Under the pieces are notes generated by a model. The model saw only the letters and a list, made by a program, of their open reading frames with translations, did not search any database and was not told the origin of the DNA. The translations under genes and the position numbers were made by a program. From the NCBI GenBank assembly GCA_947650365.1, contig OX393557.1, positions 2,102,138 to 2,166,137 of the forward strand: DNA of 64,000 bases. Reading direction: 5' to 3'. Shown here in pieces: positions 9,050-63,700 of the stretch. Every line of letters begins with the position of its first letter. Within the stretch, counting starts at the first letter, position 1. The DNA is from Chamaelirium japonicum (lineage: Eukaryota; Streptophyta; Magnoliopsida; Liliales; Melanthiaceae).

Positions 9050-10450
9050 CTAAATCCTAAAGTGCTGTAGACTAGGCTTTCGCTTCAACCACAGCTCCCA
9101 AGGAGTTAGAGGTACTGACTTTGATGGAACAAAGTTCAAAGTATATGCTGCCGTCTCTAGGGCATATCCCCAAAAACTAGGTGGCAATATTGCATAACTC
9201 ATCATAGTCCGAACCATGTCTAACAAAGTTCGGTTTCTCCTCTCAGATACACCGTTCTGTTGTGGTGTCCCTGGTGCAGTCAACTGGGATACAATCTTAT
9301 GCTCACGCAGGTACCCAATAAATTCATCCGATAGGTATTTGCCTTCTCGATCCGATCGGAGAGACTTGATACTTTTACCTGTCTGCTTTTCTGCTTCAGC
9401 TCTGAACTCCTTGAACTTATCAAAGGATTCAGACTTCCGCCGCATTAGGTATATGTATCCAAACCTCGAGTGATCATCCATGAAGGTGATGAAATACTCG
9501 AAGCCTCCTATAGCACGGACACTTATGGGCCCATATACATCAGTGTGTACCAACTCTAATACCTCCTTAGATCTGCTACCTTTGGCTCGGAAAGATCTTT
9601 TAGTCATCTTGCCTTCCAAGCAAGACTCACACGTCGGTAGGCTTTCTGAAATATCTGGACTTAAGAGTCCTACCTTAACCAACCTGTGAATCCTGTCTGA
9701 GGCTATGTGTCCAAGCCTTAGATGCCAAAGGAGTATTGGATTATCTAATAGATTTTTTCTTTTAAATGAATTAATCACACAAGCTTCAGTTATGTTATCC
9801 TGCTTATGATTGGAGTTAATTACATAGAGACCATTCTGTATCTTTCCCTTACAAACAACGGAACCATTCAATTTAATTGACACACCAGAAGCATCAAATA
9901 AAACTGAAAAACCTTCATTATTCAATAAGGAAATAGAAATTAAGTTTCGTCTCAAAGACGGTACATAAAGTATGTCTCTAAGTAATAAACTTCTTCCATC
10001 AAAGAACTGCAAGATGATATCTCCAACTGCGTCAGCCTCTGCCACGGCCTTAGTTTTTATGCTTAGGATCATCTCCGTATCACCCAGTTTTCTTGTCTCC
10101 TTGAACCCCTACAAATTATTGCAAGCATGGTTAGTGGAACCAGAATCCACAATCCATGAAACTGGAGAACAACTGGATGCTACAAGGGATTCCACTATGT
10201 GGATTCAAGATATACCTGTCTCAGCCTTCTTGGGAGCTGCGCGGCAGTCGCCCTTCCAGTGCCCCTTCTTGCCGCATCGGAAATATTTTCCTTTGGGCTT
10301 CGCCGGACCATTCTGCTTAGGAACCTACAACTGCATCTGGCCCATCTTGATGGGCTTCTTAGACTTTCTTTTCTGAAACTTGCCCTTGGCTTTCAGAGAA
10401 GAATTCCGCTCTATATTCAGGGATTGGGCTCCTGCCTTCATCCTGTCCTC
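9050..10450 (-). pseudogene. Copia protease-to-integrase region (fossil)
   Basis: The longest open piece, 9050-10072, reads LRDILYVPSLRRNLISI (protease-integrase linker), WHLRLGHIASDRIHRLVKVG with CESCLEGKM (HHCC zinc domain), LELVHTDVYGPI, and QNGVSERRNRTLLDMVRTMM (integrase core). The integrase would join element cDNA to host DNA. The stretch to 10450 carries weaker gag C-terminal and protease-like sequence. The region is part of a broken element. Confidence 0.88.
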
Positions 10451-10456
10451 TGCTGC

Positions 10457-11032
10457 CTAGAGCGTCGCTAGGAGCTCTGCGTTAGATATCTCCAACCGGT
10501 TAAGGTTAAAGTTGGTAACGAAGCCCTCAAACACTCCTGACAGAGACGCGAGGAAAATATCGGTCTGGATCTCTGCATCCAAGATGACATCGAAGGAACC
10601 AAGCTCGTTCACATAGCCAAACAATTTCAGTATATAATCCCGAACTAAAGTCCCCTCTGCCATCTTCATGGACACCAATTTATTGATGGTCAGGTAACGA
10701 GTTACCCGACTACGACCCTCGAACATTTCCTTTAGGTAGAGCATCATGTCTGAAGAAAAGGCCATGTCTTCGACTTGCTTCTAAAGGACGGTCTGCAAAG
10801 ATGCCACTATGTAGAACTTGCATATCTCATCAGTATCTAGCCAGTCTTTCCATTCCTTTAACTGGGCCTCAGTTGCACTTGGTCCCGGCATGGTCGGTTG
10901 AGGGGTACTTAGGGCAATTGTGTGTTTGCCAACCCTTAGGACGAGCATCAGGTTACGCTTCCAGTCCTTGTAGTTTGGTCTCGTAAGTTTGTTATCATTA
11001 AGTATGGAGGCAAGGGGGTCGAGCTTGGTCAT
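10457..11032 (-). pseudogene. Copia gag (fossil)
   Basis: The N-terminal piece begins MTKLDPLASILNDNKLTRPN followed by YKDWKRNLMLVL, the usual Copia gag opening. The second piece reads SRVTRYLTINKLVSMKMAEG and LASLSGVFEGFVTNFNLNRL, the UBN2-type capsid domain. Gag would form the virus-like particle. A similar gag piece lies at 43207-43488 in the plus-strand Copia, so the two elements are related. Confidence 0.85.
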
Positions 11033-12940
11033 GATTTCTGTAAATAATGGTTTAAAGCAATAGTTATGGTCTACTATAATCTAATTCATGGAATTTAGAA
11101 ATAGATAATATTTACTCCAACCGCTATGTCTTCACTACCTCATGTGGAGATATCCAGGAATCTAAATTCCCTGGGCTGGAGCACTGAGACTATCGGTCTT
11201 GAATTGGAGACAGCATCTCGGTGAGAGCATGCAACTGCTTCTGCCAACGAGATTTTTATGACCTAGTCTTCATCAGAATTACCCATGGTAAACTGACAGA
11301 TCTCCCAGTCTCCTTTTGGCCAGCTTTATGTGACCCGCGTGCGCAGCAACAGCGGCTTCACACAAGCTTTCGGATGCTTCCCACAAATCTAGGTGGTGTC
11401 GGCAGGGGGGTTCATAGGCTCCCGCAGTGCAGGAAAAAACCATCACCCACTGCCACTGGCATCCTCCATGTCCCGAAGGAAATCACTAGGCGAACCAGCA
11501 TGGAAGGAAACACAGCTCTCATCCGGTGGGAATATCGAACTGCGTACCTTCCACCTAGACCCTTAGTCGGTTGATTGTGGAGGCCAGGGGCTCCCCTTTG
11601 GAGGGAACCTCTTACACATCCCTTCTTTATGAGGTTTTATGCATATCTAGATAGGTCACGACCTCCTAGACATAGACCCTGGTCTACCGTGCTCCCACTA
11701 GGATTACAAAACCTCCCGCAAAGAATTAGTATCCTTGGAAAATATCATAGTCCCTACCTTGAATACTCAGTTTTCGTCTTTCTTGCAAGGATCACATTAC
11801 ATAGATTCCAAGGATCCCGATACTTCACTAGTTTGCTCATAATCCTAAGATCTGGAGCCTAGCCTAAGGTCAACATGGAAAGGACTCCCACTACAATGAT
11901 GCCTTGTTCATAATTTGATGCCTGATGTCATAGTATACCTCATCTCATTATAGGTTTCGATGTTGGCCAAATAAGGACATCCGACAACCTCCGCCGGACC
12001 TCAACCTAATGGTGGCATAACCAAATCGTGATGAGTTCATACTACCATCAAACGTCATCTAGAAAAGGGTATCACACAGTAAAATCCTAACCTAACTTGG
12101 TCACTAGGACCACGTGGGGAAAGGGCATCCTACTAGGGTTATCATACTTCTTGTGCAGACATTAGTTAATTATCTCTAAACAAATCTAACATTGCATCTA
12201 TCCCAGTGCACAGTACTTGGCTACCTGAACTACCACGAGGGCGGTTACCGCCTTTCCTTTTAGCTAGCCACCGGATTCGCACGTCTTAGAACCATTTAGA
12301 GACACCGATGAATCCATAAGCTTAGTACTAACCCTAAGCTTGATCTAGAGACAAACTCACAAGCAAGATAATAAAATTATCATCGAGGTTCTCTAAACAT
12401 TAAGTAAAGAGAATCAACAGATCGAAAAACATCCAAACTGAATCAAGTCCAGGGTCCGACCCCTGAACCTGAATAGCACAGCCAAGATATCCTGCTCTTT
12501 CATTCTGCACGATCTCTGACGACGATCCCTATCATCGCCAACGTGCACGCTTTCGCCGGGTCTTTGCACGCCATGGTACCGCTTGCCCGAACCGTGGATG
12601 TAGCATTATCTTCTTCTTCTTCTTGTGACCGAAAAACTAACACGCTCAGAGCAAGTGCTCGTTCGTGTATAATTTCACTAGAGGATGGTCAACCCCCACC
12701 CTCGCCTATCTAGAGCCTTAAAATCCACAAGCACAATAATAATCAATGCAAAATTAAATTCGGGGTCCGACCCCCGGATGCATGCAATCACAAATTACTA
12801 TTCAGCGTGACACCTTCAAAAAGACGATACATAGCACAATCCATATGCATGATTTACACCGAACCCCGACGAAAACATATGTCATCATATATTCACATAA
12901 TGTTTTCATGAATTCATGTATGAAACATACACCAAAGCGT
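11033..12940 (-). other. Copia leader (untranslated region between PBS and gag)
   Basis: This stretch of about 1.9 kb lacks coding signals and lies between the primer-binding site and gag. Short blocks, for example GTTCAGGGGTCGGACCCTG, recur in the leader of the plus-strand Copia near 41690, which supports common ancestry. A CTT/GAA microsatellite lies at 12611-12628. Confidence 0.7.
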
Positions 12941-12952
12941 GCTCTGATACCA
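12941..12952 (-). other. Copia primer-binding site (tRNA-Met)
   Basis: On the minus strand the 12 bases read TGGTATCAGAGC, complementary to the 3' end of initiator tRNA-Met, 2 bp from the LTR end. This fixes the orientation of the element and identifies 12955-14909 as its 5' LTR. Confidence 0.9.
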
Positions 12953-12954
12953 AT

Positions 12955-14909
12955 TGTTGGAATTGGATCCGCTTATCAGAGTCACAGCGAAAGCAAAAGA
13001 AAGATCCGAAGATCATACGGTGTATGTTTCAATATAATTAATTCTACAAAACAATCTACATGCAAATCTATGATCTTAGCATATGTGCGGACACCCTAGA
13101 GGTATACTATGATCTACGGAAGACATGCATACATCTAGTTAGGTGTTTAGAATCATCATACCTTTTTGGACCTATGATCCGAAGATGACGGAACGATGAA
13201 GAACCGCACTTGAATCGCAAGGGAAACTGTCGGATAGCACCTTGTCCTTTGCGAATTGAAGAATCCTCGAAATCCCGTCTCTGAGTGCAGGGATTACAAG
13301 CCGACGGAGGAATCCGTTGCGAAGACGATGGTGAGTCGCGAGATTTTCTCCTCCTCTTTCTCCTTTCTTCCTTCTCCTTCCTTCCTCTTTCTTCTCCCTT
13401 CTTCTTCCTCTCTTTTCCTTGGCTGAAACCACAAAGATGAGGAGAGGGGAGAGGGTTCGGATTATCTAGAGGAGAGGAGCACTAGGGCCGGCCCTCCCCC
13501 TCCCTATTTCCTTTATAGGGCCGGTCTCCCATGGCTCCAAGGAGGCTAGGGCCGGCCCTAGTAGGATAAGGATAAAGGGGGACGATTTTTAGGGATTTCC
13601 TGTGTCTATCGTGAAGCCTGGACAAAAACGCCCTTCACGAAAAGTGGAAAACTGAAAGAGAGACTGAGTGAGGTGCGCTACTCGGAATCGAGTTTCGTAA
13701 GTGCCTGTAAGCTCTTGGAATTATTTCGCTCAATCTAAGATCCATATTCAATATGTTCTGAGTCATATTTCTGTATTTACCAAAATACCCCTATGACCCG
13801 TAATACATGTGAATTAGGTTCTTAGGCTCCGGGCTTGCGCTCTATTGCGCTACTTCGCATCAAACGTATCCAACTTGGTCAGGGAACAATTCCTATACGC
13901 AACGATAGGGTGGAACATTCAGGGTTCAGGATTTCTAGCTCCAACCGGATCCCTGATTAACTGTTCCGGTGACACACTGAAAGTTTCGTTAATCAGCCCT
14001 AATCCGATTAACCCGCGTAGCCACCCAGAGTGCGACGCGAGTTGAACTCTAGTGATCCTAAACTTATGTTACTCCCTCGTAACCCTGTTCTCTACTATAC
14101 TCCGATAATCCTTAGTCCCTTAAATTACTGGTGCCATGATACGACTCGGGCGGTGAGGAGCACCATCAGATCCCGATCGATCATCTGACTAGGGTTTGAT
14201 GACTTATCATCTATAACACCACACACCTTCCGGTGCTATGCCTATCATCCGGAATATCGTCAGTCATACTAACAACCACCAGGCCTGGGTTAACTGTGTG
14301 GACAGATTGACTCATCAAAATGCACCCATCTAACACTGGACGTCGGATAACCTGTAGGGATTACATGTCACTCAAGCGCCTGCCGGGTAACCCAACGTAC
14401 CGTGGTATTGGACTATGGAAGGTCCGCACATGTTGGCACATCAAAGCACCACACAATTGGTTGGCCCAGTGTACATGGTCCCTCAGGGTTAAGGACAGAT
14501 TATCTATAGTAGTAAGACGGTTTTTGCACTAGTGTCTGAATCACTGATCTGTGCACCATCTTGGTTCCTGTTCAACACGATCATCGTGCTTGGTCAGGTG
14601 AATGGAAATCCCACGTTCCCGTGGTGGAGACTTCACCACATCCTCTGCCTGCTAACAACTTATTCTCGGTGAAACGACCGGCATCACCTAAGCTGTGAAC
14701 TAGTTCTAGGTCTACACAGAACTGGTCCACTGGGTCTCCCAAGCATGGATCCACCATGCGCCTCAGTGGCCTACTGTGTTCCCTAGGGTCCTTTTATTAT
14801 ATGAGTATTTTCATATACCAGAGTAGTATTCTAATTAAAGCAATAACCAAAGTCATCTTTATTAATGTTAATACAACAAATCCATGCTAAGGACACACGA
14901 GCTGCAACA
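12955..14909 (-). repeat. Copia family A 5' LTR
   Basis: The LTR begins TGTTGGAATT and ends GCTGCAACA. It aligns by eye with 553-2429, including shared landmarks such as the TTTATTAATGTTAATACA block near the right end. Just to its right lies the RT of another Copia fragment, with a purine tract next to the junction. The LTR may therefore have been shared by two tandem copies, or inserted into the older one. Confidence 0.88.
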
Positions 14910-14924
14910 CTGTTCTCCCCATAA

Positions 14925-15640
14925 AGAGTAGATTGTAGTTGCTAAAGAGGCCCTTATTAGCTTACTTCTTATGTTGTTTCCTCCTCCGATTGTGCTCAAC
15001 CTGACATACGATGTCTTTTGCATCTCCTGGATCTCCTTCTCTGTAGTAGGATACTGCCTCTTTGCTCAAAACGAAGTGTGAAGCCAATGAAGTAGATGTT
15101 AGCTTTGCATCCTTCATATCAATCCCTTGAAGAAACTTTCAGATATAGGTCCCTTGAGATAACCAGGGCTTCCTAGCCTTTCTGTCCCTCCTGATCTCTA
15201 TGCCGAGGATTTTTCTTGCATTCACGAGATCATTTATCTCGAACTCCTTGCTCAACATCTTCTTGAGTTCAAATATCTTTCTTATGTCACAACATGTAAT
15301 GAGAATATCATCGACATAGAGTTTCAATGTCTCAGTCTCTCCATCCTCAAAGATACGAGTGTAGACGCAATAATCATATATCCTCCTCGAGTAACCGATC
15401 TGTACCATGAATGAGTCAAACTAGTTATACCACTAACTTGGTGACTGCTTAAGTCCATAGATCGACTTCTTTAGTTTGTACGCGTGGTTCTTTTTGACAT
15501 CTTCAATAAACCTGTTCAGTTGTGGCATGTAGATCTCATCCTCAAGATCCCCATAAAGAAACGTCGTCTTCACGCCCATCTGCTCTAGCACCATATCGTG
15601 ATGAGCAATCTGAGCTAGTAGCAGTCAAATAGAGGCATAC
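14925..15640 (-). mobile_element. Copia reverse transcriptase fragment (fossil)
   Basis: On the minus strand the sequence reads MGVKTTFLYGDLEDEIYMPQ, then KKSIYGLKQSP, the catalytic-site motif LKLYVDDILI, and KKMLSKEFEINDL, all hallmarks of Copia RT. It sits directly right of the family A LTR. It is probably a remnant of a second family A element whose downstream LTR is, or was, the one at 12955-14909. It is broken. Confidence 0.85.
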
Positions 15641-15895
15641 TTCTCCATTTAGAAGGGAGGAAACGCACGTTCGTCGGATTCCAAAACAGCCCCAAAAGCA
15701 GCCCAAACCAGCGACTTAACTCGTGCTACCAGTCCCGATTTGCCCGAGTGAATCAGACTCGCTCGTGCAAAATTCTGTGTTGTTCTGCTCGCAGAACTGA
15801 TCGATCTATAGTTCGCCTGGGCAAGGCCAAATTCACCCAAGCGAATTCCTGTTTCCTTTTGCTTTGCGTTGGCCTATTGCAAGCCGAAAACCCAA
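15641..15895 (-). mobile_element. Copia 3' LTR fragment of another family
   Basis: The minus strand reads GATGTAGAGAT followed by TGTTGGGTTTTCGGCTTGCA, the common purine tract plus LTR start of a second Copia family. The adjoining bases to the right look like the end of a pol gene. The LTR is cut off on its left by the RT fragment. It is short and old. Confidence 0.5.
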
Positions 15896-16450
15896 CAATC
15901 TCTACATCGGTTTTAAAATTGAACTCCGACATCGCAACTACTACTGTCTTAGTGTTTGTGATATTCCAATGACATTTTTCTCGTCACTTTTGTACCCTAC
16001 ATCACGTGTCTGATCACCTAGATCAACGATTGACTAAATCCAATTTGCTTTAGACATGCTTGGAATCTACTTCTTCTTTATCTTTTTTGATGGCTGAACA
16101 TGATCCACTTGTAGACTTATTCTTCACTGAACCCTCTGTCTTTGAGTCGGCACAGGTCAATAGGTACAGGACCCATACTGACTCGTCAGGTTGGGCCGGG
16201 TTTTAGATCAATGATCTAAACCCAGACACGGCCCTGGTATATGGATATTCCATTATTCAGGTCCTATCAGGCTATATACGGGCTTAAACAAATAATTTTT
16301 TAATACGAAAATGATCTACTGAAAAGAAGTTTTGAATCCTTGACCAGGTTGTATAGAGCCTACACCTTCGTTACTGTGCTTTTAAATTTTCACGTTTAAT
16401 CTGTTCTGCTCTTATAGAGCTAAAACCTTTGATGCCACATGGCAGTCTCC

Positions 16451-16500
<50 letters not shown>

Positions 16501-50698: not shown

Positions 50699-51650
50699 AT
50701 GTACAAGAAGAAAAACAAATCTCCAGAAAGAAAGGCATTCAAAGTGCCGTCAGCAAATCCTGATGATCTCTTCCAGCAAAGACCTCTAGAACAAGTCACG
50801 CTACAAGAGTTTTTTCCCGACCAATTCCTCCCAACCGATCAGCACTTCAAAGTCTCCTATTGTATGGCCAAAGTCCACGAGATGCCGAGAGACAAAGGTG
50901 AAGTTGAGTCGTCTGAAGAAAGTGACTCCGTCGATGAGGAAAATAGCTCTGATAAGGACGCTACTTCTCATTATGAGGCTATTCTGCACTTGCCACTCGT
51001 GGAAGCATTGCGTCTCCCAAAGAAAGCTCGCCTAGCAATGGCCACGATATTGAAAGATCCAGATAGCTACAAAATAAAGGTGAAAGATGTCGAGAAGGGA
51101 AAAATTATTACCTCCTGCAATGCAGTGATAACCTTCTCAGATGAATACCTCCAACTCGATGCACGATTGCACAACCATCCTGTCTATATCATGGGGCACA
51201 TCAAAAAGAAGCCGGTAAATAGAATCCTGCTGGATTGTGACTCCGCCATCAACATCATGCCAATACAAACAATGAGGTAGCTCGGCATTACCACTGATCA
51301 GCTCTTACAAAGCTAGCTGGTCATCCAAGGGTTCAACCAAGGTGGACAGTTGACCATCAGCATCATTCATCTGAAACTCTCCATCGACCAGCTCGATACT
51401 ACGATCCTCTTCCATGTCATCGACTGCTAGACATTGTATCACCTCTTGCTGGGAAGATCTTGGCTATACGAGAACGACGTTGTGGTGTCCACCTGGCACC
51501 AATGCTTCAAGTACTAAGAAGTGCATCATTGCAGATGACAAGCCATTTAATGAGGCTGAAGCATACCTTGCTGACGCTAAGTTTTACCATGCCAAAGACC
51601 TTGTGGCAGAAGTCCTTCCAACTAAAGCTTCGTGAATCCAAAAAGCTAAA
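50699..51650 (+). pseudogene. Gypsy aspartic protease region (fossil)
   Basis: It reads HPVYIMGHIKKKPVNRILLD then CDSAINIMPIQTM, the retropepsin active-site region, and further LVIQGFNQGGQLTISIIHL, HLLLGRSWLYEND and WHQCFKY. It precedes a long spacer and RT. Broken. Confidence 0.82.
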
Positions 51651-52739
51651 AAGGTGAAGTGGGAAAAATCCTCTTCACCTGCAAATCTAGTGCAACCTTC
51701 CAAGGCGATACACGAAGTCAGGGAAGCACCGGTGCTAAAACAAAAGATGTGTATCAGCTTCAAGCCAAAATCTATACCCCATACTCCATTGCCTGTCCAA
51801 GCTGCTCCGATCCTACGATTGGCACCTCAATGGCTTCGCAACTCTGGACAATCATCCTCTACTCCAGCAAAAGGGCCAGTCCCGCTGCTGTCCGAAGCCA
51901 ACTTCATTACTCTGCATGGAATGATGATGCCACTGTATGGTCTGCACTCTTCGAATTCAACTGGTTCTACCAAATCCATTGACCCCACCAAGCTCATATT
52001 CAAACTAGAAGAACCCTTGGGGCAAAATGCCACCAAATTATTATTCAAAGCTGGTTACAAGGAAGAAGATGCTGCATGTATAGGTACACTACCTTTAGCA
52101 GCAATATCGCATAGGATGACTAAGACTCAAGCTTATCTCCTTCAAAATGGCGAGCAAATTCTCCTGAACCGACGAGGCATCGGCTCCAGCCAAACTTCGG
52201 TGGTCGTCAAAATTGCAGCGAAGAAGGCCTCCACCTCTAAATACATTAAAGTGAAGATAGTAGATGAAGCAGAAAATGGATCATCAGTCTCCGATGCAAT
52301 CTCCACGTATGCCGTTCATACTAAGTCCGGCATCGAGCTCAATGTTGGGACGTGTTCTATAAACAGAAGAAGAGCACTCAAAGCCAATCAAATCCAAGGT
52401 CTGCATCGATGTTCGAAAGACTCGAGCCAATCAAGCAAGGAAAGAGAAAGTTGGCATTCCACCATTTAAGGATGCCATTTGGGGATGTCGTTTCGATTCC
52501 CACCCACCCACCCAAGTCAATTCGTTCGACAGGCATGTCAGATGGTGCCTTCTGCAAAAGCTACCTAGTGGGAGTCAATCATATATCCATTACCGATACT
52601 GAACACGATAATTCTTCTACTTCGGACAACGAGTTGCAAGACGCCCCGTTAGTCCTCAAAGAAGGGGGGCAATCCACCGTCGACAACTTGAAGGAAATCA
52701 ACTTAGGCACATAGGAGGAGCCTCGACCTACATTTGTCA

Positions 52740-53057
52740 GCACACTCTTAACTCCTGAAGAAGAAGTGATGTATATCAAGCTGCTACAAGAATACAGAGA
52801 TGTCTTTGTATGGTCCTAGACGGAAATGCTAGGTCTCGATCCCAAGATCATGGTACACCAGCTCGCCGTCAAACATAGAGCTAGCGCCATTAAGTAAGGA
52901 CAAAGACGCTACCGGCCGGAGTTGGTACCCCAGATAGAAGGCAAAGTCAACAAGCTTATCGAAGCCGACTTTATCCAAAAAGTCAAGTACTCGATATGGA
53001 TCTCCAGTATGATTCCAGTTAAAAAGAAGAACGGCCAAATCAGAGTATGCATGGACT
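52740..53057 (+). pseudogene. Gypsy reverse transcriptase N-terminal part (fossil)
   Basis: It reads EYRDVFVWS, MLGLDPKIMVHQLAVK, RYRPELVPQIEGKVNKLIEA and then VKKKNGQIRVCMD, the fingers of RT. It is interrupted by the CACTA tip at 53058; the remainder of pol is not in the window. Confidence 0.85.
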
Positions 53058-53885
53058 CACTACAAAAAAAAGAGTTTTTACCGAAGAAAATATACCGTCG
53101 GTAAAAGTATATTTCTGTCAGTAAAGCTTTATCGCGACAGACTGAATTTTTGTCACTGGCCATCAGGAAAGAATTTCGTGATGGTCTATTATTTTCGCCG
53201 GTAATAAAAATTAATACCGACAGATATTTTTTAATCATCAGTAATATTTAATTTTTTAACAAAAATTAATATAGTTTATTACCGACGGTAATATAGAGTC
53301 TGTCGGTACAGATATATATATTACTGGTGGGAACAATTATCCAATCGGTTCTAATTATTAAAAACAATTAATTTAATTTATTAATATCGACGGAAGTACT
53401 TTCGATCGTCGGTAATATATCTATCTTTACCGATTGGTATAATCATACCCATCGGTAAAGATTAATATATTACCGACGGATATATATTATCGTCGGTTAA
53501 TATTATTTAAAACCTATTATATGAAAAAAAAAAATTATCGACGGAAATAATATAATCCATCGGTAATAAAACATGAATTTTTTTAAAAAAATAGCTAAAA
53601 TCTAGTTACTTAATTCCTGTCATTTACCAAAATAAATAAAATTATCACAATTCCACAATACACATTATTACCACAATACCACAATTATACCATAATTACC
53701 ATAATACACAAAATTATCATAATTCTCACAATATATAAAATTACCATAATATTACAGATAATACAAAAAATTAGCACAATACCACATTTACCACAATACA
53801 TATTATTTGACAATCACAGATCGATAATTTATAATACACTAAAATAATATTTATTTCATAATATTATCAAATTAATTTTATATAA

Positions 53886-53951
53886 TCAAAAAGCGATGGG
53901 AAGCTGTCGCTCGGCAATAACACAAGTGCTAGCACCCCTAACATCGCAATC
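53886..53951 (-). pseudogene. Last exon of the CACTA gene
   Basis: The 66-bp exon follows a good acceptor TAATTGCAG|G and encodes DCDVRGASTCVIAERQLPIA plus F and a TGA stop. It is in phase with the donor exon ending DDLAVAYDQ at 58177. Assignment as an exon rests on splice signals and phase, not on a transcript. Confidence 0.55.
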
Positions 53952-56900
53952 CTGCAATTAACAATATATATTTGTTAAATAGATGATTGATATTTATAAC
54001 TAATATAATGAGAAATTTGACTTACCCCCCCCCCCAAAATTATATGCCAATTAGTAAGTCATCAGTTAGCATGTTTTAGATGATAAAGTTGGTTTGGATT
54101 CGATCGAATCATTATCAAATCACATCTGATAATTCAGACTTAGATAATTTTTTGTATTTCATACCAGTGAGCAAGTATTTTGTAGATATGTTAAGATTTT
54201 ACCCTCTGATTTACTAATTTTGAGTCTAAGTGTTGGAAAATCATAAGCTAACGTGTTTTGGATTATAAAGTTAGTTTGAATTCGATCGGATCGTTATCAC
54301 ATCACATCCGATAATTCGTACTTTGATGCTTTTTTGTATTTTGGACTTCCGTGCAAGTGTTTAGTAATTATTTTAAGATTTTACCCTTCGATTGACTAAT
54401 TTAGATTTTAAGCGTTGAAAAATCATAAGTTAGCATGTTTTGGATTATGAAGTTGGTTTAGATTCGATCGTATCGTATCCGATAATTCGGACTTGAATGT
54501 TTTTTTATTTTTTGGACTTGCGTGCAAATATTTAGAAGTAATTTTAAGATTTTACCCTCTGATTGACTAATTTAGAGTCTAAGCATTGGAAAATCATAAG
54601 TTAGCGTGTTTTATATTATGAAGTTGGTTTGAATTAAATCGAAACCTTATCGGATCGCACCTGATTTTACCCTTCGATTGAGTAATTTAGAGTCTAAGTA
54701 TTAGAAAATCATAAGTTAGCGTGTTTTATATTTTGAAGTTGGTTTGGATTCAATCGGATCATAATCGGATCGCATCCGATAATTTGGACTTGGATGCTTT
54801 TTCGTATTTCAGACTTGCAAGCAAGTTTTAAGTAGATATTTGTAGATTTTACCCTCTGATTGACTAATTTAGAGTCCAGGTATTGGAAAATCATAAGTTA
54901 GCATATTTTGGATTTTGAAGTTGGTTTGGATTCGATCAGATCATAATTAAATCGCATTCGATAATTCGAAGTTGGATGTTTTTTTGTATTTTGGACTTGT
55001 GACCAAGTTTTTAGTAGATATTTTAAGATTTTACCCTCCGATTGACAAATTTAGAGCCTAAGTATTAGAAAATAATAAGTTAGCGTGTTTCGGATTTTGA
55101 AGATGGTTTGGATTCAATCGAATCAAAATCAAATCGCATCCGATAATTCGGACTAGGATATTTTTTCCTATTTCCGACTTTCGAGCAAGTTCGAAGTATA
55201 TATTTTAAGATTTTACCCTCCGATTAACTAATTTAGAGTCTAAGTGTTAGAAAATCATAAGTTAGCGTGTTTTGAATTTTGAAATTGGTTTGGATTCGAT
55301 CGAATCGTTATTAGATCGCATCCGATAATTCAGATTTGGATGTTTTTTCGTATTTCGAACTTGTGAGCAAGTGTTTAGTAGATATTTTAAGATTTTACCC
55401 TCTGATTGACTAATTTAGAGTCTAAGCGTTGGAAAATCATAAGTTAGCGTGTTTCAGATTTGGAAGTTAGTTTGTATTCGATCAATCGTTATGAGATCAC
55501 ATCCGATAATTCAGACTTTGATATTTTTTTCTATTTCAGACTTGCGAGCAAGTTTTTAGTAGATATTTTCAGATTTTACCCTTTGATTGACTAATTTAGA
55601 GTCTAAGTGTTAGAAAATCATAAGTTAGCGTGTTTCGGATTATGAAGTTGGTTTGGATTCGATCGAATCATTATTGGATCGTATCTGATAATTCGGACTT
55701 AGATTTTTTTTGTATTTTGGATTTGCAAGCAAGTTTTTAATATATATTTTAAGATTTTATCCTCCGATTGACTAATTTAGAGTCTAAGCGTTGAAAAATC
55801 ATAAGTTAGTTTGTTTCAGATTTTTAACTTGGTTTGGATTTGATCAAATCGTAATCGGATCGTATCCGATAATTCGAACTTGGATGGTTTTTTATATTTT
55901 GAACTTCCGAGTAAGTCCAAAGTAGATATTTGAAGATTTTACCCTCCGATTGACTAATTTAGAGTCTAAGCATTGTAAAATCATAAGTTAGCGTGTTTTG
56001 TTTTTTGAAATTAATTTGGATCCGATTAGATCATAATTAGATTGTATACGGTAATTCAAACTATGATGTTTTTTTGTATTTTGGATTTGCGAGCAAGTTT
56101 TAAGTAGATATTGGAAGATTTTACCCTCTGATTGATTAATTTAGAGTCTAATTATTTAAAAATCATAAATTAGCATGTTTTGGATTTTGAACTTAGTTTG
56201 GATTTGAATGGATCATTATCGGATCGCATCCGATAATTCAGATTTAGATGTTTTTTTGTATTTAGGACTTCTGAGCAAGTTTTAAGAAGATATTTAAAGA
56301 TTTTACCCACTGATTAACTAATTTAGAGTATAAGCGTTGGAAAATAATAAGTTAGTGTGTTTCGGATTTTGACTTTGGTTTGAATTCGATCAGATCATTA
56401 TTAAATCGTATCTGATAATTCAGACTTGCAAGTTTTTTCATATTTCGAACATGCGAGCAAGTTTTAAGTAGATATTCAAACATTTTACCCTCTGATTGAC
56501 TAATTTAGAGTCTAAGAGTTGGAAAATAATAAGTTAGTGTGTTTCAGATTTTAAAATTAGTTTGGATTCGATTTGATCGTTATCGAATCGTATTCGATAA
56601 TTTGAACTTGAATGTTTTTTTGTATTTCAGACTTGCGAGTAAGTTTAAAATAGATATTTGAAGATTTTACCCTCCGATTGACTAATTTAAAGTCTAAGCA
56701 TTGGAAAATCATAAGTTAGCGTGTTTTGGATTTTAAAATTGGTTTGGATTCGATTGGATCATATCTGATAATTCAGACTTGGATGTTTTTTCATATTTCA
56801 GACTTCCGAACATGTCCGAAGTAGATATTTGAAGATTTTACCCTCCGATTGACTAATTTATAGTCTAAACGTTTGAAAATCATAATTTAGCGTGTTTTAT

Positions 56901-58176
56901 ATTTTGAAGTTGATTTGGATTCGATTGGATCATAATTGGATCTCATCCGATAATTCAGACTTGGATATTTTTTTGTATTTCGGACTTGAGAGTAAGTTTT
57001 AAGTAGATATTTAAAGGTTTTACCCTCCGATTGACTAATTTAGAGTCTAAGCATTGAAAAATCATAAGTTAGCATATTTTGGATTTTGAAGTTAGTTTGG
57101 ATTCGATTAGATCGTAATCGGATCACATCCGATAATTTAGACTTGGATGTTTTTTAATAATTTTGACTTGTGTATAAGTTTTTAGTAGATATTTTAAGAT
57201 TTTACCCTCCGATTGACTAATTTAGAGTCTAAGCGTTGGACAATCAAAAGCTAGCGTGTTTTGGATATTGAAGTTGGTTTGGATTCAATCGGATTGTAGT
57301 CGGATCATATTCGATAATTCAGACTTGGATGTTTTTTTTTAGATTTTACTCTCCGATTGACTAATTTAGAGTCTAAGCATTGAAAAATCTTAAGTTAGCG
57401 TGTCTTGTATTTTAAAATCGGTTTGGATTCGATTGGATCATTATCAGATCGTATCTAATAATTCGGACATGGATGTTTTTTTATATTTTAGAATTGTGAG
57501 CAAGTTTTAATTAGATATTTGAAGATTTTACCCTCCTATTGATTAATTTAGAGTCTAAATATTTAAAAATCATAATTTAGTGTATTTCAGATTTTAAACT
57601 TGGTTTGGATTCGATCAGATCGTTATCAGATCACATCCGATAATTCGGACTTGGATGTTTTTTTGTATTTCGGACTTGCAAGCAAGTTTTAAGTAGATAT
57701 TTGAATATTTTACCATCCGATTGACTAATTTAGAGTCTATGTGTTGGAAAATCATAAGTTAGTGTGTTTTAGTTTTTGAACTTGGTTTGGGTTTGATCGG
57801 ATCGTAATCGGATCGTATCCGATAATTCGAACTTGGATATTTTTTTATATTTCAGACTTGCGAGCAAGTCCAAAGTAGATATTTTATGATTTTACCCTCC
57901 GATTTACTAATTAAGAGTCTGAGCATTGAAAAAATATATGTTAGCGTGTTTTGGATTTCGAACTTGGTTTGGATTCAATCAGATCATAATCGGATCACAT
58001 CTGATAATTCGGACTTAGATGTTTTTTTGTATTTCGAACTTGCAAGAAAGTCCGAAGTAGATATTTTAAGATTTTTATGATTGACTAATTTAAAGTCTAA
58101 GCATTATAAAAACATACTTGTTTTAATTTTAGTAAGATATATACTTTATATTAATATTATAAAGATTAGTAAGTAC
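53952..58176 (-). other. Intron of the CACTA gene, filled by satellite
   Basis: On the minus strand the donor is TCAG|GTACTTACTAA and the acceptor is TAATTGCAG|G, 4,225 bp apart, both strong plant signals. Almost the whole intron (about 54056-58110) is a tandem array of a 182-bp unit, so the intron grew by satellite amplification inside the transposon. Confidence 0.6.
54056..58110. repeat. 182-bp satellite array, about 23 units
   Basis: Marking the motif TTTTACCCTCYGATTGACTA by eye gives starts at 54201, 54383, 54554, 54669, 54851, 55033, 55215, 55397 and so on to 57894 and about 58075. Fifteen of 22 intervals are 182 bp and three are 181; two are 171, one 144 and one 115. A unit also contains AATCATAAGTTAGCGTGTTT, GGTTTGGATTCGATC and CATCCGATAATTCGGACTTG. 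Units are AT-rich, all in one orientation, and differ at roughly a tenth or more of positions. The array is not coding. Confidence 0.95.
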
Positions 58177-59135
58177 CTGATCATAAGCCACCGCTAGGTC
58201 ATCTCATAAACTCATAAAGTGTTCACTCTAGTTCCATGCGAGCTTCTCTTTCCTCCTCAACCCGCTGCTCGAAGGCCTAACTCTCCTCGCACCCCATCTC
58301 AACCCTGTGTTCAAGGGTCTGCCTCTGCTCACACTCCACGTCTAGCACAGACTGCAACTGAGTTATAACCCCAGTTTGGGTGTCCCATGCCCTCGAGCGC
58401 ATACCTTCTCGTCCAATTAAAGTAGGAGGATGGCGTGACTCTAAGGCCCATATAGAGGATGCGGCCATGCGTGGGAGGTCTGAGCACAGTATCTATCACC
58501 GAGTTGACAAATACTGAGCTAGAGAAGGAGCCAACCTTGCCCGACGAGATCACCATAAGTCTTATTCTCTCCTATATAAAAACAATCAATGATATTCAAT
58601 GATATTTAATGGTATACCTACGAATGTATTAATAGTAACTTAATTACATACGACTTGCGAGGCAACCATGTTGTCTAGAAATGCCCCGTCAGTACGCCGC
58701 CTCGTAGAGGCCTCAAAAAGATCAATCCGATTAGGCTTGTGGCCCAAGGACTATACCTATTTTTTGGTATATAAAATAAATAGATGAGTAAACATAAGAT
58801 TTATAGAGTTTTAAATAATAAAATATTTATACTATTTTCAAACTGGTGGGCAAGCTTGGCCATGGAGGTCCGATCCCCCTCACTGGAGCAAGTGTCGTTG
58901 TGTCATTTCTATTATGTCTACCTCTAGCAGAATTCGTTTGTGTCAATCGATTAAATTTTCAAATATCAATACAAAGTTTGACTATAACATTGAAACAAGT
59001 ATGAATCAACAAAATAATAATCATACCTGAAACTGAGGGGTGGCCCAGTGAGAGACCAAAGACTGTAGAATGTGTAGCGGAGGCGTGCTTCTCACCTTGG
59101 CCGCTGTGGGTGCAAATTTTGGCAAGAAGTCTGCA
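58177..59135 (-). pseudogene. CACTA-encoded plant transposase-like (Transposase_24 type) exons
   Basis: Plant CACTA elements encode a second protein with a Transposase_24-like domain, thought to bind element ends. On the minus strand, exons read LLPKFAPT/LVSHWATPQFQ (59130-59030, ending CAG|GTATGA), then a piece with AKLAHQFENS, then HKPNRIDLFEAS...DGAFLDNMVASQVV (58760-58650), then VFVNSVIDTVLRPPTHGRIL with YMGLRVTPSS, and a coiled-coil-like LDVECEQRQTLEHRVEMGCE...FEQRVEEEREARMELE ending DDLAVAYDQ at 58177. The 58177-58560 exon needs a frame change after CARR and has in-frame stops, so the gene is dead. The N-terminal half is missing. Confidence 0.65.
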
Positions 59136-59640
59136 AACAGCGGGACCCACCGGCCCTGCCTGGTGGGACCCCGAAGACAACAGCGGGACCCACCGGCCCT
59201 GCCTGGTGGGCCCCCGAGTACCACAGTGGGACCCACCGGCCCTGCCTGGTGGGCCCCCGAAGACTACAGCGGGACCCACCGGCCCCGCCTGGTGGGCCCC
59301 CGAGTACAACAGCGGGACCCACCGGCCCTGCCTGGTGGGCCCCCGAGTACCACAGTGGGACCCACCGGCCCTGCCTGGTGGGCCCCCGAAGACTACAGCG
59401 GGACCCACCGGCCCCGCCTGGTGGGCCCCCGAGTACCACAGTGGGACCCACCGGCCTTGCCTGGTGGGCCCCCGAAGACTACAGCGGGACCCACCGGCCC
59501 CGCCTGGTGGGCCCCCGAGTACCACAGCAGGGACCCACCGGCCCTGCCTGGTGGGCCCCCGAGTACCACAGCGGGACCCACCAGCCCTGCCTGGTGGGCC
59601 CCCTAAGACAGTAGCGGGGCCCGCCAGCTTTACCTGGAGA
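59126..59640. repeat. 44-bp minisatellite, about 11-12 units
   Basis: GC-rich units such as ACAGCGGGACCCACCGGCCC then TGCCTGGTGGGCCCCCGAGT recur every 44 bp, with one slightly longer unit near 59526. Two alternating subtypes (CGAGTACCAC and CGAAGACTAC) suggest growth by pairs. Because 44 is not a multiple of three, all frames stay open on both strands, which creates long false proteins. The array sits at the join between CACTA sequence and a gypsy LTR and is probably in the LTR. Confidence 0.95.
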
Positions 59641-60116
59641 ATCCCCAGATGCTGCAGCAGAAACCGCCATTTAACCCAGAATTCCCACCAGAGAATCCTA
59701 TAAATAGTAGAGCCTTCGAATGTAAAAGGATCGATTCTGAAGAGATCGAATTCTGAGTTCTAAAACCAGAGCTCTGGGATTTTCAACTTCTGATCTACCA
59801 TCTCTCTTTGATCTTCTTTTCTCCTTAGAAGAGATCAGAGGGTTTTCAGTGACACTCGGCCTGTCGAGGTCACTTCAACTGAAGTGTTAGTGAATTCGGG
59901 TTGCTCCCTATAGCATGGAGACGTAGGCTTCGGCTGAACTCCGAGATCACATCTCGTGTCACAATCTCTTTTATTGCATATCACTTTCAATTGACATATC
60001 AAAAGGCTTCAACTTCAATCAACAGATCGGCCAACGATCCTCGACGTCAACTTCGACTCCAATTGACTGGTGCTGCGAGAGTCTTCGGGTCGGCACGAAG
60101 ATTTTCCCCCACAGTT

Positions 60117-60136
60117 TGGCGCCGTCTGTGGGATCC
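60117..60136 (+). other. Gypsy primer-binding site
   Basis: TGGCGCCGTCTGTGGGATCC just after the LTR end; the same type of site occurs on the minus strand at 44741-44757. Confidence 0.8.
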
Positions 60137-60258
60137 GAACGAGAAGCCGTGTCCTCTCAATTTCGACTACTAGATCAATAGCCAAACTTCCTCGCCCCCT
60201 CGGTTGCTCAAACAACTGATCGGACATCGGCAATCTCGTTGTACCCTTCGTACTCTGA

Positions 60259-61980: not shown

Positions 61981-62300
61981 AGATCTCTCTCGAGATTGAA
62001 AGATCTGGGGGTTAGAGATAGTCTACTTTCGAGCAACCATTCGAATTGCCAGAGAGCACAGCAGTGGAAACTAGCTCCCAACTGGGAAAGTCCATACATG
62101 GTCGAGTCAGAAGAAAGCATCGTCTGCCACGAGCTAGATATCTCAAAATGCTCTACTCTAAGTGTAAATTTCTATGCTGAATAAAGATTGCTCTCAAACG
62201 TCTACTTGTCCGTTCGAATTCTGAGTTATGAGACAGTGCAACATTCAGTTTCAAACCTTCAAGCAAATTCAAGTTGGGCCAGCTCAACCTTCAAGCAACA

Positions 62301-62625
62301 AGGTCGTTTAACAAGTTTAGGGCCTCGTGTTGCGACACGACCCTTTACGTTCTAATGTTAAACGGTTTCGGGTTGTGAAACAGCACAACTCTCAATTTCA
62401 ATCTCCAATATCGTATAACAAGTTTAGGGCCTCGTGTTGCGACACGACCCTTTACGTGCAAATGTTAAATGGTTTCGGGTTGTGAAACAGCACAACTCTC
62501 AATTTCAAGCTACCAGGTCGTTTAACAAGTTTAGGGCCTCGTGTTGCGACACGACCCTTTACGTGCAAATGTTAAACGGTTTCAGGTTGTGAAACAGCAC
62601 AACTCTCAATTTCAAGCTACCAGAA
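62301..62625 (+). repeat. 107-bp tandem repeat, three copies
   Basis: ACAAGTTTAGGGCCTCGTGT starts at 62311, 62418 and 62525, exactly 107 bp apart. Each unit carries hairpin-forming TCGTGT-TGCG-ACACGA and GTTTC...GAAAC arms. Copies differ at few positions, so amplification is recent relative to the element. Confidence 0.93.
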
Positions 62626-63320
62626 TATCAACACTCAGATACATAATCCAAGACACCTTCATCACCTCTGCACTCAGCAAGTACAAAATCCGAGACCTGC
62701 TCTCGGTACCCTAGCAAAGTCCAAAGACAAGACTCAACACTCGAATGAAAAGTTCAAGATCGCAGACAAAGCACCAAGCTCTCAGCCCCAACACATCTCG
62801 ACACGAAGATCAAGGTCCAATGCATTCTGCAGCATTCAGCCAACGTCACTCCAGAGGCAGGACATCTCTCAAACTTACCAAGTCACTACAGAAGACTTCT
62901 ACCACTCGACACTCATAAGAGAAGCATCACGCGCTCTCATGCTCGGGGAAGACTCGTTCTGGAAGTCCACCATCGATGAGGGGGTGAATCTACAATCTTT
63001 CATAGCCAGCATCAACGACGAGACGACTATCACCCAGGAGTCGCGTGATCTTTCGACCAACCCTTAAAAACCTTCCGACGTTGCAGATCGTCCTAAGATT
63101 CAAAAGCCGATTGACAAATGCGAAAACTCATCAACCATTCAAGGGCAAAGTCTGAGGCATGAACCGCAGCATTCGAACAAAGTCCAAATTTAGTCAAAGT
63201 CTGAGACCGACATCTTGGCATTTGGTCGAAAGTCCAAGCTCGCAACCTTGGCACGAAGCAGCAAAGTCCAAGACCTGAGTCTCAGCATTCAAATCGAAGT
63301 CTTCGCTCGTGGCCTCACTC
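62626..63320 (+). other. Non-coding 3' region of the gypsy element
   Basis: No gene. Short phrases such as 'aaagtccaagac' and 'tctcagcattc' recur irregularly, like a strongly decayed tandem repeat. Confidence 0.45.
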
Positions 63321-63700
63321 GAACCTTGACCGGATAATTTTTTACCGATCGGACAAACTTGTCCGATCGGCTAAAATCATTCGATCGGTCGATTTTCTAC
63401 TGGATCTGGCAAAAAACCGAGATTTTTTGCCGATCACGCGAACCTTGACCGGATAATTTTTTACCGATCGGACAAACTTGTCCGATCGGCTAAAATCATT
63501 CGATCGGTCGATTTTTTACTGGATCTGGCAAAAAACCGAGGTTTTTTGCCGATCACGCGAACCTTGACCGGATAATTTTTTACCGATCGGACAAACTTGT
63601 CCGATCGGCTAAAATCATTCGATCGGTCGATTTTCTACTGGGTCTGGCAAAAAACCAAGGTTTTTTGCCGATCACTCGAACCTTGACCGGATAATTTGGC
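63321..63700 (+). repeat. 119-bp tandem repeat, three copies plus a partial fourth, with palindrome
   Basis: GAACCTTGACCGGATAATTT starts at 63321, 63440, 63559 and 63678, exactly 119 bp apart. Each full unit contains two perfect 12-bp inverted arms, CCGATCGGACAA and TTGTCCGATCGG, separated by 2 bp. The three full copies differ at only a few positions. Confidence 0.95.

Follow-up and report, generated by a model that had tools for sequence, protein, structure and literature searches.

The 64,000 nucleotides of Chamaelirium japonicum DNA analysed here (the window; C9:2102138-2166137, in a genome of 1.52 Gb and 3253 contigs) contain a CACTA transposon inserted in a Gypsy pol frame, and within this element, whose tip lies at 53058, an array of 182-bp units occupies positions 54051-58117. 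We find that the array is a family trait of this CACTA element, and that its place, directly behind an element gene, is constant. The features of the array-bearing end of the element are as follows.

53058..53885, no strand assigned: element end downstream of its genes, consisting of the CACTA tip CACTACAAAAAAAAG and a subterminal region that contains ACCGACGG-type repeats (from the sequence; termini of related copies are 63-97% identical and lie at the same position relative to the array)
53886..53951, minus strand: GC-rich piece behind the acceptor-like site, conserved in relatives; probably a non-coding last exon
53952..58176, minus strand: interval from donor-like CAG|GTACTT to acceptor-like TTGCAG|G, a putative intron of the 3' untranslated region (3'-UTR), from conservation of the sites in copies
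54051..58117, minus strand (the strand of the element's genes; units all in one orientation): 182-bp array of 23-24 units (autocorrelation, anchors, profile search)
58177..58562, minus strand: last coding exon (exon 2) of the second element gene, with a coiled-coil-like C-terminus (open frame common to relatives)
58181..58183, minus strand: stop codon TGA, 7 nt before the donor (stop at the same place in 28/29 copies)
58655..58755, minus strand, boundaries approximate: preceding exon-like piece of the second element gene (84-99% identical in relatives, by alignment)

Autocorrelation gives a sharp peak at 182 bp, and Tandem Repeats Finder agrees on the period; 23 anchors run from 54208 to 58079 with spacings that are mostly 182 bp (exceptions: 115, 144, 171, 178 and 181), and a profile built from the window's units finds 24 matches at 54051-58117, on one strand throughout. 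The first-pass annotation of this stretch had proposed about 23 units with a period of 182 bp, and the anchors, the autocorrelation peak and the profile matches reproduce both figures. The window's units share a mean pairwise identity of 82%, and their similarity is nearly flat along the array (0.83 between neighbours; 0.81-0.82 at lags of 8-11). By its head-to-tail order, constant unit length and concerted evolution, the array is satellite-like; typical satellite DNA also forms long free arrays at heterochromatic sites. A link to nucleosomes through AA/TT-type periodicity was considered and set aside, as this periodicity, taken without a shuffled control, is not diagnostic.

The unit is abundant in the genome. 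A 25-base motif of the unit, with up to one mismatch allowed, has 3914 genome matches (1946 + 1968) compared to 0 for the reversed control, so the array repeat is not a product of chance, and the monomer is not confined to this one locus; such confinement would have told against the first-pass annotation. Of the units already known, the motif recovers 185 of 483 in a first sample and 31 of 131 in a second; scaled from this recovery, we estimate ~10,200-16,500 units, equivalent to 1.9-3.0 Mb or 0.12-0.20% of the genome. The exact matches listed, 100 in number and all on C1 as far as 101 Mb, group into 44 clusters, and the largest cluster spans 10,955 bp with 14 matches; within this stretch, where assembly collapse could hide longer arrays, the repeat is dispersed in short clusters. 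It had been suggested that the transposon could seed satellite arrays elsewhere as it moves. Such seeding was not seen: among the 100 matches listed on C1 no cluster exceeds 10,955 bp, and only 2 of 29 other arrays examined lack adjoining CACTA parts.

Three samples place the array relative to the element: (a) 20 loci of 10 kb each, from ~37 other array-bearing places (grouped by eye, among the matches listed); (b) four loci chosen by their place in the exact-motif list on C1, together with the left flank of one of these four and an additional place; and (c) 20 copies chosen by exon 2 alone, from 38 listed places besides the window and the locus L009, with 1.25 kb on the array side of each (the exon 2 search gave 815 first-look candidates, of which 40 were scored). 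Samples (a) and (b) together comprise 29 arrays at 25 other loci (one of them L009, which duplicates the window's own region); 27 of these arrays adjoin a CACTA terminus, the donor side, or both, in the right order and orientation; the donor side is visible in 13 of the 29, and the remainder are derivatives, are diverged, or meet the end of the DNA examined. In sample (c), all 20 copies have 5-8 units behind the donor within 1.25 kb. The first-pass annotation assigned the array to the CACTA element and named its absence from other family members as evidence to the contrary; the assignment holds across these samples, and no exon-sampled copy lacks the array. Across arrays, length ranges from 6 to at least 36 profile matches, 413 of 576 spacings fall at 180-184 bp, and adjacent units never change strand. 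Spacings of 168-174 bp (64/576) reflect a recurrent deletion of ~11 bp, about one DNA turn, in many arrays. One sampled locus, L017 (C7:10546300-10556299), carries two oppositely oriented arrays, the larger of which is the only array of its size without a neighbouring CACTA part in the DNA examined.

The element itself is recognizable from its ends. A CACTAC tip is present in the window and in relatives; the tip CACTACAAAAAAAAG and the ACCGACGG-type repeats that fill the terminal 830 bp of the window's element align with the tips of related copies, in agreement with the tip at 53058 and the subterminal repeats described by the first-pass annotation. One end of the element is visible in the window, the second tip lying outside it. 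Both tips, partly degenerate, are present in L010, L028 and L030 with L054: L028 is a complete 7.0-kb element with tips, a 3-bp target site duplication (AGA/AGA) and 21 units; L010 is a 2.5-kb derivative in which exon 2 is undetected and which still has 6 units, flanked by CTA/TTA (one mismatch); and L030 with L054 has 35 matches between two tips, with no 3-bp target site duplication seen. Pfam identifies DUF4218 (E 3e-23, 1.5e-11) and DUF4216 (6e-10) in the copy L009/L029; CACTA transposases typically combine these two domains with Transposase_21. Both lie outside the window, whose element is cut at 59104. In four pieces of the conserved open frame beside the array, the candidate tnpA/ORF2-type second gene, that were tried, no Pfam family matched.

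The sequences at the array's borders place it behind, rather than within, coding sequence. Splice-like motifs stand where the first-pass annotation had put them (interval 53952-58176, minus strand), and of the 29 copies with the neighbouring exon, counting the window, 26 retain the donor GT; the description of the donor as strong is generous, as the usual donor consensus has G at +5 and CAG|GTACTT lacks it. The acceptor AG is kept in part of the copies and changed in others, e.g. from CAG to TAG or CAA. In 28 of 29 copies (9/9 older copies, window and L009 included, and 19/20 picked by exon 2) a stop codon lies 7 nt before the donor. In most younger copies the exon 2 frame runs to ...LDEFMSRSSGGSCS and then the stop; indels shift the exon 2 frame in L031 and L052, and the stop closes the coiled-coil-like frame in 26 of the 28. 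In the window copy, exon 58177..58562 is decayed, with two stops inside its last 30 codons, before the conserved stop. In copies with an intact acceptor AG, a motif they share downstream begins 21, 22 or 23 nt from the acceptor, so the downstream piece is not kept in one frame. Given the stop 7 nt before the donor and the unfixed downstream frame, the array lies behind the coding sequence, and the claim of in-phase flanking exons fails on both points; the interval may be a spliced 3'-UTR intron. A stop so near a donor is not expected to trigger nonsense-mediated decay.

The units carry a record of both homogenization and decay. The consensuses of 23 arrays (at least 9 full units each) share a mean identity of 95% (range 89-100%), and units diverge by 6-14% from the consensus of their own array; the nearest neighbour of a unit lies within its own array for 113 of 362 units only. 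At several columns one base is fixed through whole arrays and differs between element groups: column 172 is T in 21/21 window units, and A in 23/23 units of L032, 21/21 of L026 and 13/13 of L024. Higher-order structure was assessed by permutation as a preferred lag in the 19 arrays with at least 11 units, in transversions-only and all-base codings; with transversions only, 11 of the 19 have a preferred lag (p up to 0.05), and with all bases 7 of the 19, p values near 0.04 being weak given that 19 arrays were tested. Lags that hold in both codings are 6 for L016, 7 for L026, 7 for L028 and 3 for L019; that of L020 (10) appears in transversions only. Decay over 362 units is dominated by C>T (0.167 per site) and G>A (0.165), other changes ranging from 0.004 to 0.043, and by context its rate is highest at CG (0.24), followed by CHG (0.14) and CHH (0.11), a pattern such as would be expected of methylated plant DNA. 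Fixed bases, consensus likeness, higher-order lags and decay together lead us to conclude that units homogenize in mobile lineages, including by duplication of multi-unit blocks, and diverge once a copy is fixed.

We consider it likely that elements of this CACTA family carry the array as a resident component of their 3' end, behind the stop codon of the second gene, and that it has been spread inside them. This reading is built on direct observations: the constant position and orientation of the array, its presence in 20/20 exon-sampled copies, bases fixed through whole arrays, higher-order repeats, C>T-dominated decay, and the stop before the donor. We propose that the array, sitting between conserved donor-like and acceptor-like sites behind that stop codon, would have been dispersed over the genome inside elements by transposition; that in mobile lineages it would lengthen, shorten and homogenize, most likely by out-of-register repair of the excision gap or by unequal exchange; and that each inserted copy would then be silenced and its array frozen, the frozen units mutating independently, mainly by C>T and G>A, as expected if the DNA is methylated.

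The history of individual arrays bears on how the array travels. Only two array pairs are in clear unit-by-unit register, window/L009 and L012a/b, and both are explained by duplication of surrounding DNA. In L009 (C16:2508000-2517999) and in the window, the CACTA element has inserted into the same Gypsy at an identical base; the two are 96.5-97% identical over 51211-59104 where aligned, their arrays differing by small gains and losses of units, and because they share this insertion site at such identity, L009 is a segmental duplicate or haplotig of the window. L012 (C1:52644200-52654199) holds two array-bearing element ends 3964 bp apart, with a common left flank and in register, and is a local tandem duplication of element plus array. 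Lower-ranked register pairs (z 3.6-5.6 in a unit-based test) were rejected as proof of transfer, and we read them as shared subfamily variants. The first-pass view that the array moves with the element is borne out as far as the array is resident in relatives; the part of it that would need transferred arrays in register finds only these two duplications. Carriage by the element is argued from position and sequence, and an array may have been transferred intact, but the data agree no less well with an array that is rebuilt between lineages.

Several observations weigh against the residence of the array in mobile elements as we propose it. No two independent copies at unrelated sites match each other unit by unit, and the intact transfer of an array is therefore only hypothetical. 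The main array of L017 (18 matches) and a 5-match piece in L021 have no adjoining CACTA parts within the DNA examined. Our copies were sampled through the array, the motif or exon 2, and array-less relatives may exist. Some columns are mixed within arrays (column 172 has 4 A/4 T in L033 and 14 A/7 T in L016; column 155 has 13 A/8 T in the window), so homogenization is incomplete; and some turnover may have continued after insertion, given a weak local similarity at lag 1 in L030 and, in the transversions-only coding, in the window.

Alternative explanations differ in how much of this evidence they accommodate. A coding intron, in which splicing would remove the array from between two exons in phase, is the arrangement originally proposed and is very improbable: a donor GT in 26/29 copies, an AG acceptor kept in part of them and an AU-rich interval flanked by GC-richer pieces would all suit a coding intron, but the stop at −7 in 28/29 copies, which in 26 closes a frame with a conserved coiled-coil-like end, and a downstream piece offset by 21, 22 or 23 nt do not. 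It is quite possible, if somewhat short of an even chance, that the array is untranscribed or lies past the poly(A) site and that the donor- and acceptor-like sites are unused. The lack of G at +5 of the donor is consistent with such an arrangement, as is conservation that extends ~35 nt beyond the donor and reaches an AU-rich stretch, judged by eye to be a possible site of a poly(A) signal; the conservation, in both element groups, of a GC-rich piece with its TTGCAG acceptor beyond the array counts against it.

The two remaining alternatives concern why the array is there at all. CACTA elements may have taken up a free genomic satellite that is a mere passenger, as proposed for Chenopodium quinoa (PMC8978399); variable array length and the two arrays without adjoining CACTA parts would be compatible with capture. 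We regard it as unlikely, since the exact matches listed on C1 include no cluster longer than 10,955 bp and since junction and orientation are the same in both element groups, whose termini are only 63-69% identical, so that uptake would have to be a single old event. A slightly better, though still doubtful, case can be made that selection maintains the array because it serves the element in cis, through spacing, chromatin, RNA stability or a role in transposition: all 20 exon-sampled copies carry it, it is retained in the 2.5-kb derivative L010 and between the tips of L030 with L054, and its period is constant at 180-184 bp in most spacings. The wide variation in unit number speaks against such a function, as does the absence of any subterminal transposase-type motif from the monomer consensus (one mismatch allowed).

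The closest known system is a tandem array in C. quinoa, in which 32.5 units of 171 bp lie near the 3' end of CACTA-like (Jozin) elements; four scaffolds with array-bearing elements are named, signals of fluorescence in situ hybridization are dispersed along chromosomes, and the array is read as satellite capture, a related array without CACTA being present in another species (PMC8978399). Our array is likewise a tandem array inside a CACTA element near its 3' end, whereas its monomer is apparently unrelated (short BLAST, best match E 0.18). The present case differs in that the array is family-wide (20/20 exon-sampled copies), occupies a fixed junction behind a stop codon, and has lineage-specific homogenization and higher-order repeats. 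A CACTA element and a satellite are also linked by CficCl-61-40, which is reported to have arisen from a tnp2 fragment of Jozin (PMC7320549); there a coding fragment of ~40 bp starts free arrays, whereas here the 182-bp unit is non-coding and stays in the element. Tandem repeats resident in transposable elements are further described in a review for Tat-lineage long terminal repeat (LTR) retrotransposons, in their 3'-UTRs, and for Tnat1/Tnat2 of Arabidopsis, whose central repeats measure 60 or 240 bp (PMC10794571); both belong to other element classes, unlike the CACTA gene end here. In the open-access literature searched, we found no CACTA family with a satellite as a regular feature of its copies at a fixed 3' junction.

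The usual view is that satellites homogenize by exchange within long chromosomal arrays. Tentatively, and with rather less confidence than in residence of the array itself, we suggest that in this CACTA lineage a satellite is permanently built into the 3' end, that transposition is accompanied by its rebuilding and homogenization, and that the element may even need it, which would amount to concerted evolution without free chromosomal arrays. Some hundreds of short arrays (an estimate), apparently frozen in copies that differ in age, would preserve the state of the source array at successive bursts, and could be used as dated snapshots of when and how units turn over and of whether transposition drives the turnover; they would also offer a concrete route for the dispersal of satellite-like repeats along chromosomes.

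Beyond the array, the window's CACTA element is cut at 59104/59105, a breakpoint placed by comparison with the uninterrupted copy L009, by an LTR retrotransposon that is not part of it.

59105..60140 (right LTR boundary provisional), plus strand: LTR retrotransposon interrupting the element; starts TGTGGGTGC (breakpoint relative to L009)

Inside the LTR of this retrotransposon lies a 43-bp GC-rich tandem repeat of 10.8 copies with 90% matches (window 59137-59603), and downstream of its gag-like frame are two short arrays, at 62290-62624 (107 bp x 3.1) and 63315-63697 (119 bp x 3.2, 97% matches).

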